DNA of 64,000 bases from Nevskiaceae bacterium. GTDB taxonomy: Bacteria; Pseudomonadota; Gammaproteobacteria; Nevskiales; Nevskiaceae. The stretch covers positions 1 through 64,000 of the forward strand of contig SCVA01000023.1 of assembly GCA_004297005.1 (NCBI GenBank), written 5' to 3'. A model generated the notes under the pieces. That model made no database searches, was not told where the DNA came from, and worked only from the letters and a program-made list of their open reading frames with translations. Below, piece by piece: positions 233-39,927 of this stretch. Both the position numbers and the translations under genes were made by a program. Position 1 is the stretch's first letter. Every line of letters begins with the position of its first letter.

Positions 233-1864
233 TCAGGTCGGGGTCGCCGCCGGCTCGGTCGGCTTCCAGGTTTTGAGCAGCTTGAACACCTGCCCCGCCT
301 TCGTCCCCAGCATCGCCGCCGTGGTCAGCACGCCGCCCATCAGCGCGCCGCCGACGCCGGCGGTGACCACGTCCTGGCCGGTGAGGTAGAGGCCCTTCAC
401 CGGCGTCACCGGGTGCAGCCACTTCTGCTCGAAGCGGTGCAGGTCGTGATCGAGCCCGTAAATCTCGCCCTTGCCGTACATGCCGAAGTACTCGGTCGAT
501 AGCGGCGTCGACAGCTCCCAGTAGTCCATCGCGCCGCGCAACTGCGGCATCTGCTGGTACAGGCCTTCGAGCATGCGGTCGCCGAACTGTTTCTTCAGGG
601 CCTCGTACTCGGCGCCGCGATGGTTCCAGGTTTCCTTGGCCCACTTCTCGAACCACTCGTAGCGGCCCAGGGTGATGACCTCCACCGTGCTCTTGCCGGG
701 GTAGTGCTGCTCCCACTCCGGGTCCTTCGCGGACGGGAAGGAGACATAGAGCATCGGCAGAGTGTTGATCGGATCGTCGAGAAAGCGCTGGGTGTTGCCT
801 TCGTGATCGGCGTTTGGATAGATCCAGAGATTGGTCTTGGGCAGGCCCAGCTCCCGCGCGGTGCCCTTGAAGCCGGCGTAGAGGCAAAGATGCCCCGAGG
901 AAGCATGCACCTCGCGCAGCTTGGCGGCGTAGCCGTGACGCTGGCGCTCGGCTGCCGGCAGCAGGCTGCCGAAGGTCAGCTCGGCGCCGGCGCTGCTGAC
1001 CACCGCCGGCGCGCGGACCTCGCTGCCGTCTTCCATCCGCACGCCGACCGCGCGGCCGTTCTCGATCAACAGCTCCTTGACCCTGGCGTAGGTGAACACC
1101 TCACCGCCACCGCTGCGGATCACCGGGACGATGGTGTCGGCGATCTTCCAGGAGCCGCCCACCGGGTAGTTGCCACCGGCGAAGTAATGCTTGGTGACGG
1201 CGGCGTGCATGATGAAGGCGGCATCCGCCGGCGGCAGGCCGTAGTCGCCCCACTGGCCGGTGAGCACGGCGATCAGTTGCTGGTTGCTGGTGAGCTTCTC
1301 CAGCACCGCGCGGGTACTCATGAAGCATTCCTTCGGCAGCCGGAAGCGCTTCAGCGCCTCGTAGACGCGGGCGATGCGCGGCGGCATGGCCTGGCCGGCG
1401 AAGTAGGCCTGCATGCTGCCGCTGACTTTCTGCACCAGACGGAAATATTCGTCGATGGCCGCGCCTTCTTCGGGGAAGTGGCGTTTCAGCTCGGCGGCGA
1501 GATTGTCCTTGCCGGCGATGAAGTCGTAGTGCCGATCGCCGATGATGATGCGGTCGTAGCAGGCGTCCATCGGCGCCCATTCGAGCTTGCCATCGCTGAT
1601 GACGTCGAAGATGCGGCGCAGTGGCGCGTAGGGCTTGTGTACCTCGCCGATGTAGTGCACGCCGACGTCCCACTCATAGCCCTCGCGCTCGTAGGAATGC
1701 GTGAAGCCGCCAGCGGTGTAGTGCTGCTCCAGCACGCAGACCTTGCGACCCAGGCGCGTCAGCAAGGCCGCGCAACTGAGGCCGCCGATGCCGGAGCCGA
1801 TGACGATCACGTCGTAGTCCTGCGCGGCGCGGCCGGGCCGGTAGCGCTTGCCGATTCTTTTCAT
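233..1864 (-). CDS. FAD-dependent phytoene desaturase/retinol saturase-like oxidoreductase
   Basis: A 543-residue flavoprotein of the CrtI/amine-oxidase superfamily. A dinucleotide-binding GxGxxG motif (GSGIGG, residues 23-28) follows a short basic N-terminus, and the next segment (VLEQHYTAGG, then the DVGVHYIGE motif near residues 66-74) is the signature of the all-trans-retinol 13,14-reductase (retinol saturase) branch. A C-terminal FAD motif (LYLTGQDVVTAGVGGALMGG) is present. The family reduces or desaturates polyene or other hydrophobic substrates; the bacterial substrate cannot be read from sequence. The ATG at 1864 begins a plausible N-terminus. It is followed on the same strand by the IS fragment, so the gene is probably last in its unit. 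Confidence 0.8.
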   Translation of the reverse strand: MKRIGKRYRPGRAAQDYDVIVIGSGIGGLSCAALLTRLGRKVCVLEQHYTAGGFTHSYEREGYEWDVGVHYIGEVHKPYAPLRRIFDVISDGKLEWAPMDACYDRIIIGDRHYDFIAGKDNLAAELKRHFPEEGAAIDEYFRLVQKVSGSMQAYFAGQAMPPRIARVYEALKRFRLPKECFMSTRAVLEKLTSNQQLIAVLTGQWGDYGLPPADAAFIMHAAVTKHYFAGGNYPVGGSWKIADTIVPVIRSGGGEVFTYARVKELLIENGRAVGVRMEDGSEVRAPAVVSSAGAELTFGSLLPAAERQRHGYAAKLREVHASSGHLCLYAGFKGTARELGLPKTNLWIYPNADHEGNTQRFLDDPINTLPMLYVSFPSAKDPEWEQHYPGKSTVEVITLGRYEWFEKWAKETWNHRGAEYEALKKQFGDRMLEGLYQQMPQLRGAMDYWELSTPLSTEYFGMYGKGEIYGLDHDLHRFEQKWLHPVTPVKGLYLTGQDVVTAGVGGALMGGVLTTAAMLGTKAGQVFKLLKTWKPTEPAATPT

Positions 1865-1925
1865 GGGCTCCCCCAGATGGTTCGCGGCACCTTAGCGCAG
1901 CCCGCCGAGGCCTCCAAGACGCAGG

Positions 1926-2732
1926 CTAGGCGGCGTGGAAGAGGTGTCGGAACAGGCGCTCGTACCAGCGCTGCGGTAACAGCGCACGTAGCCAGAGGCC
2001 CAGGCGCTCGATGGGGGCGATGGCCAGGTGACGAAACACCGGCCGGGGATGTTCCACCAGCTTCAGCATCTGGCTGGCAAAGCGGGCGGGCGCCAGCCCC
2101 TTGCGCTCGTCTTCTTCCATCCAGCGCACCGAGGCCTCGCAGCGCGCGTGGTAGCTGGAGGCTTCACTCCAGCCCGCGACCCGCCGCCGCTGGGCGGTGA
2201 AGCCGGTGGCGAAGTTGCCGGGTTCGATGCAGACGACGCCGATCCCGTACGGAGCGACTTCGAAGCGCAGCGCCTCGGCCCAGGATTCCAGCGCCGCCTT
2301 GCTCGCGCAGTAGTAGGCCTGGAACGGCACCGGCAACTGAGTGACCAGCGAGCCGACCTGCACGATCCGGCCGCCTCCCTGCTGGCGCAACTGCGGCAGC
2401 AGGGCTCGGGTGACGCGGACGGCGCCGAAGAAATTGGTCTCGAACTGCGCCCGCGCCTCTTCCGGCGTGGTGTCTTCGATGGCGCCGGCAATGCCGAAAC
2501 CGGCGCAATTGATCAGCACGTCGATGCGCGGCTCGGCAGCCAGCAGCCAGTTGATGGCAGTCTGCACGCTGTCGTCACGGTCGACGTCCAGCGCCAGTGG
2601 CTTGCAGCCGGGCAGGTCGCGCGGCGGCTGCCGGCTCGCGGCGTAGACCCGGTGGCCGGCTTCGGCGAGCGCCTGGGCGCAGGCCCGGCCCAGGCCGGAG
2701 GAGGCGCCGACCACCAGGATCGTCTGGCTCAT
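1926..2732 (-). CDS. Short-chain dehydrogenase/reductase (SDR)
   Basis: A 268-residue classical SDR. The cofactor motif GASSGLG is at residues 9-15, NCAG at 75-78, catalytic Ser in GSL near 128 and YCASK (Tyr141, Lys145) at the active site. It should oxidise or reduce an alcohol/ketone with NAD(P)(H) in the cytoplasm. Extra C-terminal residues rich in hydrophobic and aromatic positions suggest a lipophilic substrate or membrane contact, as in many retinol/steroid-type SDRs. It ends 61 bp before the retinol-saturase-like gene on the same strand, so the two may act on related hydrophobic substrates; that link is inference. Confidence 0.85.
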   Translation of the reverse strand: MSQTILVVGASSGLGRACAQALAEAGHRVYAASRQPPRDLPGCKPLALDVDRDDSVQTAINWLLAAEPRIDVLINCAGFGIAGAIEDTTPEEARAQFETNFFGAVRVTRALLPQLRQQGGGRIVQVGSLVTQLPVPFQAYYCASKAALESWAEALRFEVAPYGIGVVCIEPGNFATGFTAQRRRVAGWSEASSYHARCEASVRWMEEDERKGLAPARFASQMLKLVEHPRPVFRHLAIAPIERLGLWLRALLPQRWYERLFRHLFHAA

Positions 2733-35337: not shown

Positions 35338-37428
35338 TCAGGCAGCGAGGCCGCCCCGGTCGTCGGTGGTCATCGACTCGCCATCGCCAGGCTGCGCACC
35401 CAGCCGCTCCTGCCAGTCAGCGAGGAAGGCCTCCAGCGGCTGCGGCCGCGCAAAGTGGTAACCCTGCCCCAGCGCGCAACCTTCGCGGCGCAGAAACGCC
35501 AACTGCTCGGCCGTCTCCACACCTTCGGCGAGCACCAGCAAGCCCAGGCGCGCGCCGACGGCGATGATCGCGGCCGCCACTTCGCAATCGCTGATGGAGC
35601 CGGGGATGTCGTCCACGAAGCCGCGATCGATCTTGAGCTTGCGCAAGGGCAGACGTCGGAGATAGCTGAGGGAGGACGCGCCAGCGCCGAAATCGTCCAG
35701 GGCGAAGCTGACGCCAGAGCCGGCAATGGCGTGCATGCGCTCCGCCACCAGCTCGATGCGCTCGGTCATCACGCTCTCGGTGACTTCCAGCTCCAGATGA
35801 CGTGCGGCGAAACCGGTTTCGGCCAGCGTGCTGGCGACGGTCGCCACGATCTCGACTTCGCTGAGCTGACGCGGCGCCAGATTGATGGCGAGCCGGAAAT
35901 CCTCGGCCACGCCCAGGGCCAGCAGACGCTTGCCATCCTCGCAAGCCTGGCGCAGCACCCACTTGCCGATCGGCACGATCAGACCGGTTTCCTCGGCCAG
36001 GGGGATGAAATCCTTGGGGCTGACGATACCGCGCTGAGGATGACGCCAGCGCAGCAGGGCCTCGACGCCGCACAGCCGGCTAGTGACCAGATCGATCTGC
36101 GGCTCGTAGACCAGATAGAACTCGCGCCGCTCCAGCGCCCGCCGCAGGTCCGACTCCAGGCGTAGCCGTTGCTCCGCGACCGCTTGCAGGTCCGGCGTGA
36201 ACGGCCGCCAGGTGTTGCGGCCCTGGTTCTTGGCCGCGTACAGCGCCAGATCGGCGTGACGAAGCAACTGCGGAAGTTCGCCGGCCTGCTCGGGGTACAG
36301 CGCGAAACCGGCGGAGACGGTCACGAACACCTCGTGGCCGTCGATGTGAAACGGTGGCCGGGTCCGCTCGACCAGGCGCTCGGACAACTGCCGGCAGCGC
36401 CACTGCAAACCCTCGCCGACCAGCAGAGTGGCGAACTCGTCGCCACCCAGCCGGAAGATCGTCACGTCCTCTTCCATCATCTCCCGCAAGCGCGCGGCGA
36501 ACTTCACCAAGAGCTCGTCGCCGGCCTGGTGCCCTAGGGTGTCGTTGACCAGTTTGAAGTTGTCGAGATCGAGCAGCACCAGACCGCAGTGTGGCGCGCG
36601 GGCGCCGCTCTGCATCGCGACTTCCTTCATCCGTTCGGTGAGCGCGTGGCGATTGCCAAGCTGGGTCAGCACATCATGGTGCACGAGGTGATCGAGCGCC
36701 GCCTGGGTGCGGACCCGCACCTGCAGCTCATGGGTGAGCGCCCGCTGGCGCATCTCGATTTCGCCCAGCATGGCGTCAAAGCTGCGCGCGATCTCGCCGA
36801 TCTCGTTACTGGAGTCGATCCCGCTGCGCCGCGAATAATCGCCCTCACGCGCCACCTGCCGCATCAGCGCGGTCAGCTCCTGCACCGGCCGGGTGATGAA
36901 GCGCGATACACGGGAGAACAGCAGCAGCGCCAGTGACACCGCGACGATCAGCACGCCCAGCGCTCCCAGCGAGTACACCAGCAGGCGCTGGTTCAGGCGG
37001 TGCAGATGCGCATCGATCACCAGATGGCCGTAGTCGCGCCCCTGATAGCGCACCGGCTCGCTGAGCTGCAGCACCTCGGCGCCCGATCGCACCATCGGAC
37101 GCTCCCGATACTCCGCCACCAGCTTGCCGTCGGCGCCCAGCAGACGCGCCGCCAGCACGTCCTCGGAGGCACTTAAAGCCTGCAGGATCTCGCGCGCGGC
37201 TTCGACGTCGTCGAACACCAGGGCGGCGCTGCTGTTGGCGGCGATCATCCGCGCCTGCACCTGGAGATCGGCGAGCAGCGCCTGGCGACTGGCGCGGTAC
37301 TCGCTATAGACGGTGACCGCGCCCGACAGCAGCGCGGTCACTGTCACCACCAGTGCCGCGCCCAGACTGAGCTGGTGGCGGATCGGCGTCCGCGCCAGAC
37401 GGCGCAACAGACCGGCGACCGGGCTCAT
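35338..37428 (-). CDS. Membrane GGDEF/EAL cyclic-di-GMP protein with CHASE8-like sensor and HAMP (YfiN-like)
   Basis: A 696-residue inner-membrane protein. TM1 (about 18-40) and TM2 (about 150-172) bracket a ~108-residue periplasmic domain like that of YfiN (NSSAALVFDDVEAAREILQAL). HAMP covers about 172-225. GGDEF is intact at residues 328-332, without an RxxD I-site upstream. The EAL domain (about 435-690) keeps EALLR, the Asn in INLAPRQ, EVTES, the DDFGAG loop, KIDRGFV and AEGVE, so phosphodiesterase activity is likely as well. It makes or breaks c-di-GMP. Its ATG overlaps the yfiR-like stop by ATGA; YfiR proteins repress YfiN cyclases in Pseudomonas. The added EAL domain differs from YfiN. 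Confidence 0.9.
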   Translation of the reverse strand: MSPVAGLLRRLARTPIRHQLSLGAALVVTVTALLSGAVTVYSEYRASRQALLADLQVQARMIAANSSAALVFDDVEAAREILQALSASEDVLAARLLGADGKLVAEYRERPMVRSGAEVLQLSEPVRYQGRDYGHLVIDAHLHRLNQRLLVYSLGALGVLIVAVSLALLLFSRVSRFITRPVQELTALMRQVAREGDYSRRSGIDSSNEIGEIARSFDAMLGEIEMRQRALTHELQVRVRTQAALDHLVHHDVLTQLGNRHALTERMKEVAMQSGARAPHCGLVLLDLDNFKLVNDTLGHQAGDELLVKFAARLREMMEEDVTIFRLGGDEFATLLVGEGLQWRCRQLSERLVERTRPPFHIDGHEVFVTVSAGFALYPEQAGELPQLLRHADLALYAAKNQGRNTWRPFTPDLQAVAEQRLRLESDLRRALERREFYLVYEPQIDLVTSRLCGVEALLRWRHPQRGIVSPKDFIPLAEETGLIVPIGKWVLRQACEDGKRLLALGVAEDFRLAINLAPRQLSEVEIVATVASTLAETGFAARHLELEVTESVMTERIELVAERMHAIAGSGVSFALDDFGAGASSLSYLRRLPLRKLKIDRGFVDDIPGSISDCEVAAAIIAVGARLGLLVLAEGVETAEQLAFLRREGCALGQGYHFARPQPLEAFLADWQERLGAQPGDGESMTTDDRGGLAA

Positions 37429-37946
37429 GGGCTAGGCACCGGCCGCGCCAGCCGCAGCACCTGGGCGCTGAACGCCAGCCCCCGGCGCTCGGCGCGACCA
37501 CGGTCGAGAGCGAACACCGGGCGACCGTCCTCCACCGCCAGCGACAGCACCGCGCCGGAGGCACAGAGCCCGAGTCCGCAATCGGCGACCGTCATCAGGC
37601 CCTCGGCGTGCGCCAACTCCGGCGACTCGGACAGCCGTTCACGTTCGGTGCCGGCGAAGTAGGCCGCGTCGCATTCGGCCAGGGCGCTCGGGCTGTTGAC
37701 GTTGCGCACCACCAGGCGGCGCTCGCCGACGCTGCGCCCCTCCAGATCCGGCAGCGCCGCAGCCACTTCGTCGCGCCCGATGACACAGAGCACCAGCTCG
37801 GCGCCCGGCTCCCGCGGGCTCTGCCAGTGGGTAAACAGCATCACCTTGTAGATCACCGCCGCCTTCACCTGGTCGTCCAGCACCGGCGCCGCCCGCAGCA
37901 AAGGCAGCAAGCCCATCATTCCGATCAGTAGCAGTAGCCTGGACAT
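37425..37946 (-). CDS. YfiR-family (DUF4154) periplasmic protein
   Basis: A 173-residue exported protein. Signal peptide MSRLLLLIGMMGLLPLLRAA is followed by the YfiR core (VKAAVIYKVMLFTHWQSP). Four cysteines, Cys54, Cys92, Cys123 and Cys128, match the number and spacing style of P. aeruginosa YfiR, where two disulfides control stability and repression of YfiN. It begins one base after the TonB receptor stop and overlaps the GGDEF/EAL gene by 4 nt, so all three are co-translated. ATG 37946 chosen because it starts the signal peptide; the frame is open 45 bp upstream. Confidence 0.88.
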   Translation of the reverse strand: MSRLLLLIGMMGLLPLLRAAPVLDDQVKAAVIYKVMLFTHWQSPREPGAELVLCVIGRDEVAAALPDLEGRSVGERRLVVRNVNSPSALAECDAAYFAGTERERLSESPELAHAEGLMTVADCGLGLCASGAVLSLAVEDGRPVFALDRGRAERRGLAFSAQVLRLARPVPSP

Positions 37947-37947
37947 G

Positions 37948-39927
37948 CTAGAACTCGGCCTCAAGCCGCAGCCGGAACTGCCGGCCGCCACCCGGTACCG
38001 CGTCGATGCCGACAGCGGCCAGGTCTGGCGAGCTGGGATCGGTGTAGCGATCGTCGAACAGGTTGTCGACCGAAGCCGACAGCGACAGACCTGGCCGCAG
38101 GCTCACGCCGGAGATCGTCAGATTGAGCAGCCAGTAACCGGCGCTGGTGCCCAGGGCGGTGCGGCGCTCGCCGGTGCCGAGCAGCTCCAGGCCGAGGCGC
38201 GAGCCGGCGACCAGGGGCAGGCTGTTGTGCAGCTTGGCCAGCCAGCGCGGCGCGTCCTCGAAATCCCCCGTCTCGTCGTGGGCACGTTGCAGGCTCAGGC
38301 TGGCGCGGCTGCGCGCGCCGCCGAACCAGTGCTTGTCCAGCATCAGGTCCAGGCCTTGTGCTTCTGCCCGCTCGCGATTGGTGAATTGCGGTGAAGCCGG
38401 ATCGCTGCTTTGCACGATGAAGTCGTGCACTCGCAGGTACTGCGCGGCGGCCTGCACCCGCAAGCTGTCGCTGACCCGGTTCTCCCAGATCAGATCCCAG
38501 TTGCTGGCGACTTCCGGCACCAGATCGGGATTGGCCTCGTAGCCTTCGACCTCGTAATAGCGCTCGAAGCTGCTCGGCACCCGGTAGGCGCGGCCGTAGA
38601 TCAGCTTCACCGTCTGCCGTGACCAGGGCTTGAGGATCAACGCCGCTCTTGGCGTGGTCACCGCGTCGAAATCGCTGTAGCTGTCGTGGCGCAGGCCTAG
38701 GTCCAGGCTCAGCCGCTGGCTGAACCGCCAGTCGTCCTGCACGTAGACACCGACACGCAGGCCGCGCTGCCGCGTGTCCTGGTACAGCAGATAGGGATCG
38801 ACGTCGTAGTTCGTCTGCTGCTGCCGCTGGTCGCGCTGCAAGTCGACGCCGATCAACAGCCGGTGACCGCTGATGCCGCCATAGACGGCGTTCAGCTCGC
38901 CGCCCCACCAGCGCCCCTCGGCGCGGTCGCGGTTGAGCACACCCTCGTAGACCAGATCGCCGCGAAAACCGTAGTAGCCGCCGAACATCTGCGCTCGCAG
39001 CAGCCAGTCGCGCCCGAGACCACCCTCGTAGTTGAGCCCGAGAAAACCCTGGCGATCGCGATAGCGATTGCCCGGATCACCGGGGTCGGCACCATAGATG
39101 GGCAGCGGCGACTGTTTGAGGCGTTCGCCGTGCATCGCCTGCAGCATCCAGGGCCCCGAGGCCAGACGGGCCGAGTATTGCTGGAACAGCTCGCCGTCGA
39201 TGTCCCGGAAATTACCCTGCCCATCGGGCGATGCGGCCAGCCCCGGCAACAGCAGGTCCTCGCCCTTGCTCTGGCCATAGGCGGCGGAGAGTTGCAGGCG
39301 GGTCTCGGCCGCCAGCGGGCGGTCGTATTGCAGATAGCCGCGCCGCAGCCCGGCGCTGCCGACCTCGGTCAGCAGCCGAAGGCCCGCCTGCGCGGCCGGC
39401 GCGCGGGTCACCACATTGATGGTGCCGAACAGCGCGTTGCTGCCGAATACCGAGGAGCCCGGCCCGCGCACAAACTCGACGCGATCAATCAGCTCGATCG
39501 GCACCGGCAGCTCGCGGCCGATAGCGGCGGCCTCATAGACATTGTCGTTCTGGCGCCGGCCGTCGATCAGCAGCAGTACCGGCGCGTTGTAGTCTCCAGC
39601 CCGGCGGATGCCGCGCACGCCGAGGTATTCGTAGACGTGATCGGAACTCAGGTGCAGACCAGGAATGGAGCGCAGCACGTCGGCCAGCGTGCGGTAGCCG
39701 TACTGGCGGATGTCCTCGCCGGTGATGACGGTGATCGCCGAGGGCGCCTCGGCCAGCGGCTGCGGGAAACGCGAGGCGGCATACACCTCCAGCCCCAGCA
39801 GTTGCTCCAGCTCCAGGTCCGCCAGTTGTCCGGTGCTGACGCCGGAGGCCCGGGCCGGGATCGACGAAATCAGCAGCAGGATCAGGAGGCCCGCGCGCCG
39901 GACCCGTCCCAGGTATTCATTCGCCAT
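37948..39927 (-). CDS. TonB-dependent outer-membrane receptor
   Basis: A 659-residue outer-membrane receptor. Signal peptide (about residues 10-28, RRAGLLILLLISSIPARA), a plug domain (about 50-165: PSAITVITGEDIRQYGYRTLADVLRSIPG and FVRGPGSSVFGSNALFGTINVVTR) and a beta-barrel ending in Phe (RLRLEAEF). No long N-terminal signalling domain for an anti-sigma factor is present. The plug resembles vitamin B12/colicin-type receptors. It is the first gene of an operon with the YfiR-like and GGDEF/EAL proteins. Ligand unknown; no cobalamin riboswitch was found upstream. ATG 39927 chosen for the signal peptide. Confidence 0.9.
   Translation of the reverse strand: MANEYLGRVRRAGLLILLLISSIPARASGVSTGQLADLELEQLLGLEVYAASRFPQPLAEAPSAITVITGEDIRQYGYRTLADVLRSIPGLHLSSDHVYEYLGVRGIRRAGDYNAPVLLLIDGRRQNDNVYEAAAIGRELPVPIELIDRVEFVRGPGSSVFGSNALFGTINVVTRAPAAQAGLRLLTEVGSAGLRRGYLQYDRPLAAETRLQLSAAYGQSKGEDLLLPGLAASPDGQGNFRDIDGELFQQYSARLASGPWMLQAMHGERLKQSPLPIYGADPGDPGNRYRDRQGFLGLNYEGGLGRDWLLRAQMFGGYYGFRGDLVYEGVLNRDRAEGRWWGGELNAVYGGISGHRLLIGVDLQRDQRQQQTNYDVDPYLLYQDTRQRGLRVGVYVQDDWRFSQRLSLDLGLRHDSYSDFDAVTTPRAALILKPWSRQTVKLIYGRAYRVPSSFERYYEVEGYEANPDLVPEVASNWDLIWENRVSDSLRVQAAAQYLRVHDFIVQSSDPASPQFTNRERAEAQGLDLMLDKHWFGGARSRASLSLQRAHDETGDFEDAPRWLAKLHNSLPLVAGSRLGLELLGTGERRTALGTSAGYWLLNLTISGVSLRPGLSLSASVDNLFDDRYTDPSSPDLAAVGIDAVPGGGRQFRLRLEAEF

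Follow-up and report, generated by a model that had tools for sequence, protein, structure and literature searches.

The YfiBNR system of Pseudomonas aeruginosa and the HmsCDE system of Yersinia combine a secreted YfiR-fold protein, a membrane protein of CHASE8-HAMP-GGDEF architecture and a third partner in the outer membrane. Small molecules bind in a hydrophobic pocket of PAO1 YfiR, and its C71–C110 cysteine pair is redox-sensitive (PMC4887326). In PAO1 the outer-membrane partner YfiB grips YfiR by an unwound N-terminal linker and a second patch, and one surface of YfiR serves both YfiB and YfiN (PMC4655355, PMC4887326). The stimuli of YfiR systems are poorly known, and the locus described here bears on that point. 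It lies in the first 64,000 nucleotides of contig SCVA01000023.1 of a Nevskiaceae bacterium (GCA_004297005.1), a stretch referred to as the window, and consists of a TonB-dependent receptor gene, a YfiR gene and a gene for a GGDEF-EAL enzyme of cyclic di-GMP (c-di-GMP) turnover. Receptors linked to YfiR share an N-terminal element that is a new observation here.

Signals from TonB receptors are best known to reach the cytoplasm through STN domains and extracytoplasmic function (ECF) sigma factors. Transducers of the FecA and FpvA type resemble the window operon in having a TonB receptor that reports its ligand to the cytoplasm. However, Pfam finds no STN signaling domain on the window receptor, which has about 20 residues between its signal peptide and the TonB-box position, and in place of an anti-sigma/ECF sigma pair the operon holds a separate periplasmic protein and a c-di-GMP enzyme. 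NspS-MbaA of Vibrio cholerae is similar in that a membrane GGDEF-EAL enzyme is controlled by a periplasmic adaptor (PMC5646818), but that adaptor is a substrate-binding protein, and an outer-membrane receptor is not known to belong to the system.

NCBIfam names proteins of the same kinds, the TOL_0244 receptor (NF053590), the TOL_0243 YfiR-like protein (NF053591) and a YfiR-associated histidine kinase (NF053592), and these names imply the same neighborhood with a kinase as output where the window has GGDEF-EAL. The kinase form is therefore already known to annotators. These models are the best or near-best matches of the window proteins, all below the curated cut-offs (135 of 645, 73 of 125 and 138 of 194 bits); a triad relative that also has a GGDEF-EAL output (L038) passes NF053591 with 145.7 bits against a cut-off of 125. 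A literature search without most subscription journals found no paper on receptor–YfiR systems or on the motif string of the element.

The window operon resembles YfiBNR in outline and is not a member of it, because YfiB and an EAL-less YfiN are both missing from the operon. Its outer-membrane partner is a TonB-dependent receptor rather than an OmpA lipoprotein, its effector carries a full EAL domain that YfiN lacks (229.9 of 325 bits with the YfiN model), and its YfiR has no second disulfide. No OmpA-type lipoprotein YfiB is found among the operon's neighbors; an orthologue elsewhere in the genome was not searched for.

A receptor–YfiR module with several outputs

The receptor, YfiR and the GGDEF-EAL protein very likely form one functional unit. 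The first-pass annotation, made from the sequence of the window, had placed a TonB-dependent receptor in the position of YfiB, and a wider survey bears this out. YfiR neighborhoods were fetched and their genes labeled by profiles built in this analysis, with counts taken over 76 YfiR loci with enough flanking sequence in a sample of the Gammaproteobacteria (the class sample) and over 16 loci in the family. A receptor adjoins YfiR in 48 of the 76 class loci and 15 of the 16 family loci, a sensor-type membrane protein in 55 and 15, and both in 34 and 14. The three-gene order sought in other genomes is thus common, and because its parts also co-diverge, the objection that the triad might lack conservation fails.

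The genome of the window has two YfiR genes, each adjoining a receptor: one in the window triad and one in a receptor–YfiR–kinase operon on contig 7. A sibling genome (L003) has the triad with identical flanks (SnoaL and enoyl-CoA hydratase), with 76% identity between the receptors and 66% between the YfiRs, and was the only match in a single-sequence scan of genome contigs. The outputs adjoining YfiR in the class sample are a kinase (33 loci), GGDEF-EAL (13), adenylate cyclase with a kinase (3), a chemoreceptor (2), GGDEF (2), EAL-GGDEF-kinase (1) and an unlabeled protein (1), and the sibling genome alone carries GGDEF-EAL, chemoreceptor and kinase versions. The window operon is therefore one of several output versions of a module that is widespread.

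The linkage of receptor and YfiR is seen with differing outputs and also in two-gene units without an effector. Among paralogous pairs within single genomes, receptor distances and YfiR distances are correlated (rho 0.43, 35 comparisons, permutation p 0.0004). Three genomes carry a fusion of YfiR with a histidine kinase, in which YfiR is predicted on the periplasmic side and is followed by a long linker, one membrane helix, HisKA and HATPase. Gene order and these natural fusions support a link between YfiR and the sensor protein, and two of the fusion loci (G343 and G224) encode an element-bearing receptor as well.

Other arrangements occur as well. The YfiR-kinase fusions look like an adaptor turned into the kinase's own sensor. 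Tandem receptor–YfiR–receptor–YfiR orders are found at L050 and L080, followed at L050 by a single kinase. Loci L095, L101 and L103 (family f107) have kinase–YfiR pairs in reversed order with no adjacent TonB receptor, behind a cytochrome-like gene with a CxxCH-type motif at its start.

The N-terminal element and the kinds of outer-membrane partner

The mature N-termini of YfiR-adjacent receptors have the consensus DLxxLSLEELMxxEVTSVSK in common, directly before the TonB-box position. A profile of 42 columns built from these receptors (A1) matches the window receptor at 39715-39837 with an E value of 1.3e-18. In the window genome there are two A1 sites at E < 1e-17, and they are exactly the YfiR-adjoining receptors (2 of 18 plug receptors); the next-best receptor has an E value of 0.13. 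Within the family, the element is present in 10 of 10 YfiR genomes and 1 of 48 others, and 17 of its 18 sites are separated from YfiR by one receptor length; the 18th receptor (G053) stops 159 bases short of a contig end. In the class sample, matches covering the helix part were found in 49 of 57 genomes with YfiR and 1 of 312 others, that is, 49 of the 50 element genomes have YfiR. The same association holds in a phylum sample of mostly new genomes (51 of 67 with YfiR against 3 of 210 without), where 51 of 54 element genomes have YfiR. TonB receptors in YfiR-less genomes match A1 only from the TonB box onward. The cases of an element without YfiR comprise G677, where it adjoins a substrate-binding protein and a cyclase, G673, which is 8% contaminated, G271, where the match is weak, and G477, which is unexplained. 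At L174 (9417-13461, plus strand) and L177 (5813-9206, plus strand), element-bearing receptors have as neighbors a substrate-binding protein (PF04392 or PF13379) together with either a kinase or a GGDEF protein.

Natural exchanges of the outer-membrane partner are also found. In G123, G359 and G683, from two families, the gene before YfiR encodes a plug-less barrel of about 350-380 residues with a weak PF13557 match, and a GGDEF-EAL protein follows. All three barrels carry the element at their N-termini (PSDLADLSLQDLLRLEI, PSDLADLSMQDLMRLNI, PSEFAELSFQDLLDVDI), and none of 18 homologues of the barrel from other genomes matches A1, their N-termini being unrelated and often rich in His and Met.

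Among the YfiR genomes that lack the element are ones with classic YfiR–YfiN–YfiB operons, which contain the OmpA lipoprotein; YfiB is present at L195, L196, L199, L202 and L204, unlike in the window operon. The YfiRs differ accordingly. Both disulfides are present in 8 of 8 YfiB-type YfiRs, whereas cysteines at the positions of the second one (PAO1 C145–C152) occur in 4 and 1 of 118 other YfiRs, most of which retain the first pair. In the family-wide alignment the second disulfide is a marker of YfiB-type operons and nearly absent from the rest. Since receptors, plug-less barrels and OmpA lipoproteins all precede or accompany YfiR, with differing disulfides, the outer-membrane partner is of at least three kinds. 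By eye the element looks like the first helix in YfiB, but homology between the two was dropped, since A1 ranks YfiB proteins 544 or worse of 1516.

A possible YfiR hook and competing explanations

The favored reading of the window operon is a YfiBNR-type, envelope-spanning unit whose outer-membrane partner is a TonB-dependent receptor rather than the lipoprotein YfiB. YfiR would bind the GGDEF-EAL protein at its periplasmic CHASE8 domain and keep the enzyme in one state. The receptor would compete with this effector for YfiR by means of the short, helix-like element that precedes the TonB box at the mature N-terminus. When a ligand binds or TonB pulls, exposure of the element would change, YfiR would be captured or released, and c-di-GMP turnover would shift. 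Because YfiB of PAO1 grips YfiR with an N-terminal linker, the element may by analogy hold YfiR at the outer membrane. The chances that the receptor is such a ligand-gated substitute for YfiB, holding YfiR by this element, are evenly balanced. Docking of YfiR on the element, taken by itself, has about an even prospect, and gating by a ligand a somewhat poorer one.

In a broader form, DLxxLSLEELMxxEV may be a portable periplasmic docking tag for YfiR-type adaptors, by which many TonB receptors, and also a plug-less barrel unrelated to them, signal their ligand status to inner-membrane outputs, a proposal that could go either way. It is just as uncertain that these outputs (kinase, c-di-GMP enzyme, chemoreceptor and cyclase) are interchangeable and make up a general outer-membrane sensing route besides STN/ECF-sigma. 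Should the receptor gate YfiR, siderophores or nutrients at the cell surface could directly set a c-di-GMP, phosphorelay or chemotaxis output. The conserved element, being a short peptide, makes the idea testable and predicts which receptors signal rather than only import.

Several observations weigh against docking on the element. A1 was trained on YfiR-adjacent receptors, so its hits in the training genomes arise partly by construction, which does not apply to its absence elsewhere or to the phylum sample. The sampled species are related rather than independent, and Fisher p-values overstate the evidence. Several element-bearing receptors in G194 and G341 (L177-L186) lie far from any YfiR, and in both genomes such receptors outnumber the two YfiR genes; perhaps many receptors share one adaptor. 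At L174 and L177 the element-bearing receptors adjoin substrate-binding proteins instead of YfiR, possibly as a parallel system with another adaptor, and the element may serve periplasmic adaptors in general. The A1 profile finds no match to YfiB linkers, and the window YfiR has A, R and A where PAO1 has the interface residues E163, L166 and I169.

It is also conceivable, although rather unlikely, that the element is an extended TonB box or the mark of a receptor clade, that the receptor imports a nutrient and that YfiR alone responds to the incoming substrate or to redox conditions in the periplasm and relays this to the effector, with no docking on the receptor. The receptor does retain a plug and a TonB-box-like segment, and the small-molecule pocket and redox-sensitive pair of PAO1 YfiR (PMC4887326) are in keeping with this, the C71–C110 pair being retained in about 83% of receptor-type YfiRs. 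However, the element is also found on plug-less barrels, which are TonB independent, and there only when they precede YfiR, and an extended box or clade marker does not fit the receptors of YfiR-less genomes, whose similarity to A1 starts at the box.

Quite improbable is an arrangement in which the receptor stands outside signaling, the genes being cotranscribed since c-di-GMP regulates use of the receptor's substrate, while YfiR and a YfiB-like lipoprotein encoded elsewhere sense envelope stress. The precedent of YfiB as outer-membrane partner in PAO1 speaks for it. Against it, receptor and YfiR stay linked whatever the output, even in effector-less units, they co-diverge, and the YfiR of classic YfiB operons has the second disulfide that is absent from the receptor type, including the window YfiR. 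The chance that the genes are merely neighbors without a functional link is vanishingly small. The patchy occurrence of YfiR in genus and family (10 of 58 family genomes, with 57 of 369 genomes in the class sample) would suit it, but both YfiR copies of the genome adjoin receptors although there are only 18 plug receptors, and the sibling shows synteny. Conservation of the triad contradicts it, as do co-divergence, the fusions and the association with the element.

Proteins and layout of the window operon

The first-pass annotation was correct in its coordinates, strand, 1-base gap and ATGA coupling, as judged by open frames and Pfam (Table 1). The receptor stop ends at 37948 and the YfiR ATG begins at 37946, the YfiR stop and the GGDEF-EAL ATG overlap as ATGA at 37425-37428, and there is no space for promoters between the three genes. 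Enoyl-CoA hydratase, SnoaL and short-chain dehydrogenase/reductase (SDR) proteins are encoded next to the operon. The surroundings give no hint of the ligand of the receptor, because neither an Rfam element nor a sigma-70-like promoter was found near the operon.

Table 1. Features of the window operon, with positions in the window, and YfiR-kinase fusions, with positions in their own loci
Feature	Location	Strand	Basis
TonB-dependent receptor gene, 659 residues	37948..39927	-	open frame, coupling; Pfam Plug and TonB_dep_Rec_b-barrel above cut-off
N-terminal element, residues G33-V48 (GQLADLELEQLLGLEV), proposed YfiR hook	39784..39831	-	profile A1, alignment A1
TonB-box-like segment, residues E47-S52 (EVYAAS), at the CirA/BtuB box position; putative function	39772..39789	-	alignment with CirA and A1
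Plug domain, residues 58-169	39421..39756	-	PF07715 67.7 bits
YfiR/DUF4154 periplasmic protein, 173 residues	37425..37946	-	PF13689 99.5 bits (cut-off 24.9); NF053591 73.3 bits (cut-off 125); PAO1 YfiR structures
CHASE8-HAMP-GGDEF-EAL membrane protein, 696 residues	35338..37428	-	Pfam domains; active-site motifs
Periplasmic CHASE8 region, residues 48-114, between predicted membrane helices 22-40 and 154-172	37087..37287	-	PF17152 61.3 bits; hydropathy
GGDEF domain, residues 250-405	36214..36681	-	PF00990 142 bits
EAL domain, residues 427-662	35443..36150	-	PF00563 232.2 bits
YfiR-histidine kinase fusion	L118 179-2884	+
YfiR-histidine kinase fusion	L119 3409-6129	-
YfiR-histidine kinase fusion	L120 3542-6136	-

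The receptor has a signal peptide, a plug (E 1.5e-18) and a barrel (PF00593, E 5.8e-38, 132.3 bits), and its closest solved relatives by sequence in the PDB are CirA and BtuB. The YfiR protein is a secreted member of the DUF4154/YfiR group (E 2.3e-28) that matches the PAO1 YfiR structure by sequence with an E value of 1e-5 and scores 38.2 of 85 bits with the NCBIfam YfiR equivalog. The four cysteines noted on first inspection as of conserved type are all there, but only the pair equivalent to PAO1 C71–C110 is conserved family-wide; Ser occupies the C152 position, and the additional cysteine is found 5 residues ahead of the C145 equivalent. AlphaFold2 models from two-sequence alignments had predicted local distance difference test (pLDDT) values of 50 for YfiR and 28 for the receptor, too low for use.

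The effector has CHASE8 (E 1.2e-16), HAMP (2.4e-12), GGDEF (1.8e-41) and EAL (7e-69) domains. It was initially called bifunctional, and the active-site motifs of both GGDEF and EAL are indeed intact; with no RxxD inhibitory I-site before GGDEF, bifunctionality is only possible. Among NCBIfam models the effector matches the phosphodiesterase DibA best, over the GGDEF-EAL span only and below cut-off, and net hydrolysis is therefore as possible as synthesis; the c-di-GMP output may have either sign.

Near the receptor-less kinase–YfiR pair at L095, a gene at 710-2695 (minus strand) encodes a repeat-rich protein of 661 residues that has no evident signal peptide and whose start (NPFLELEFEELFNIPLTSTQ) weakly matches A1 at 14.7 bits.

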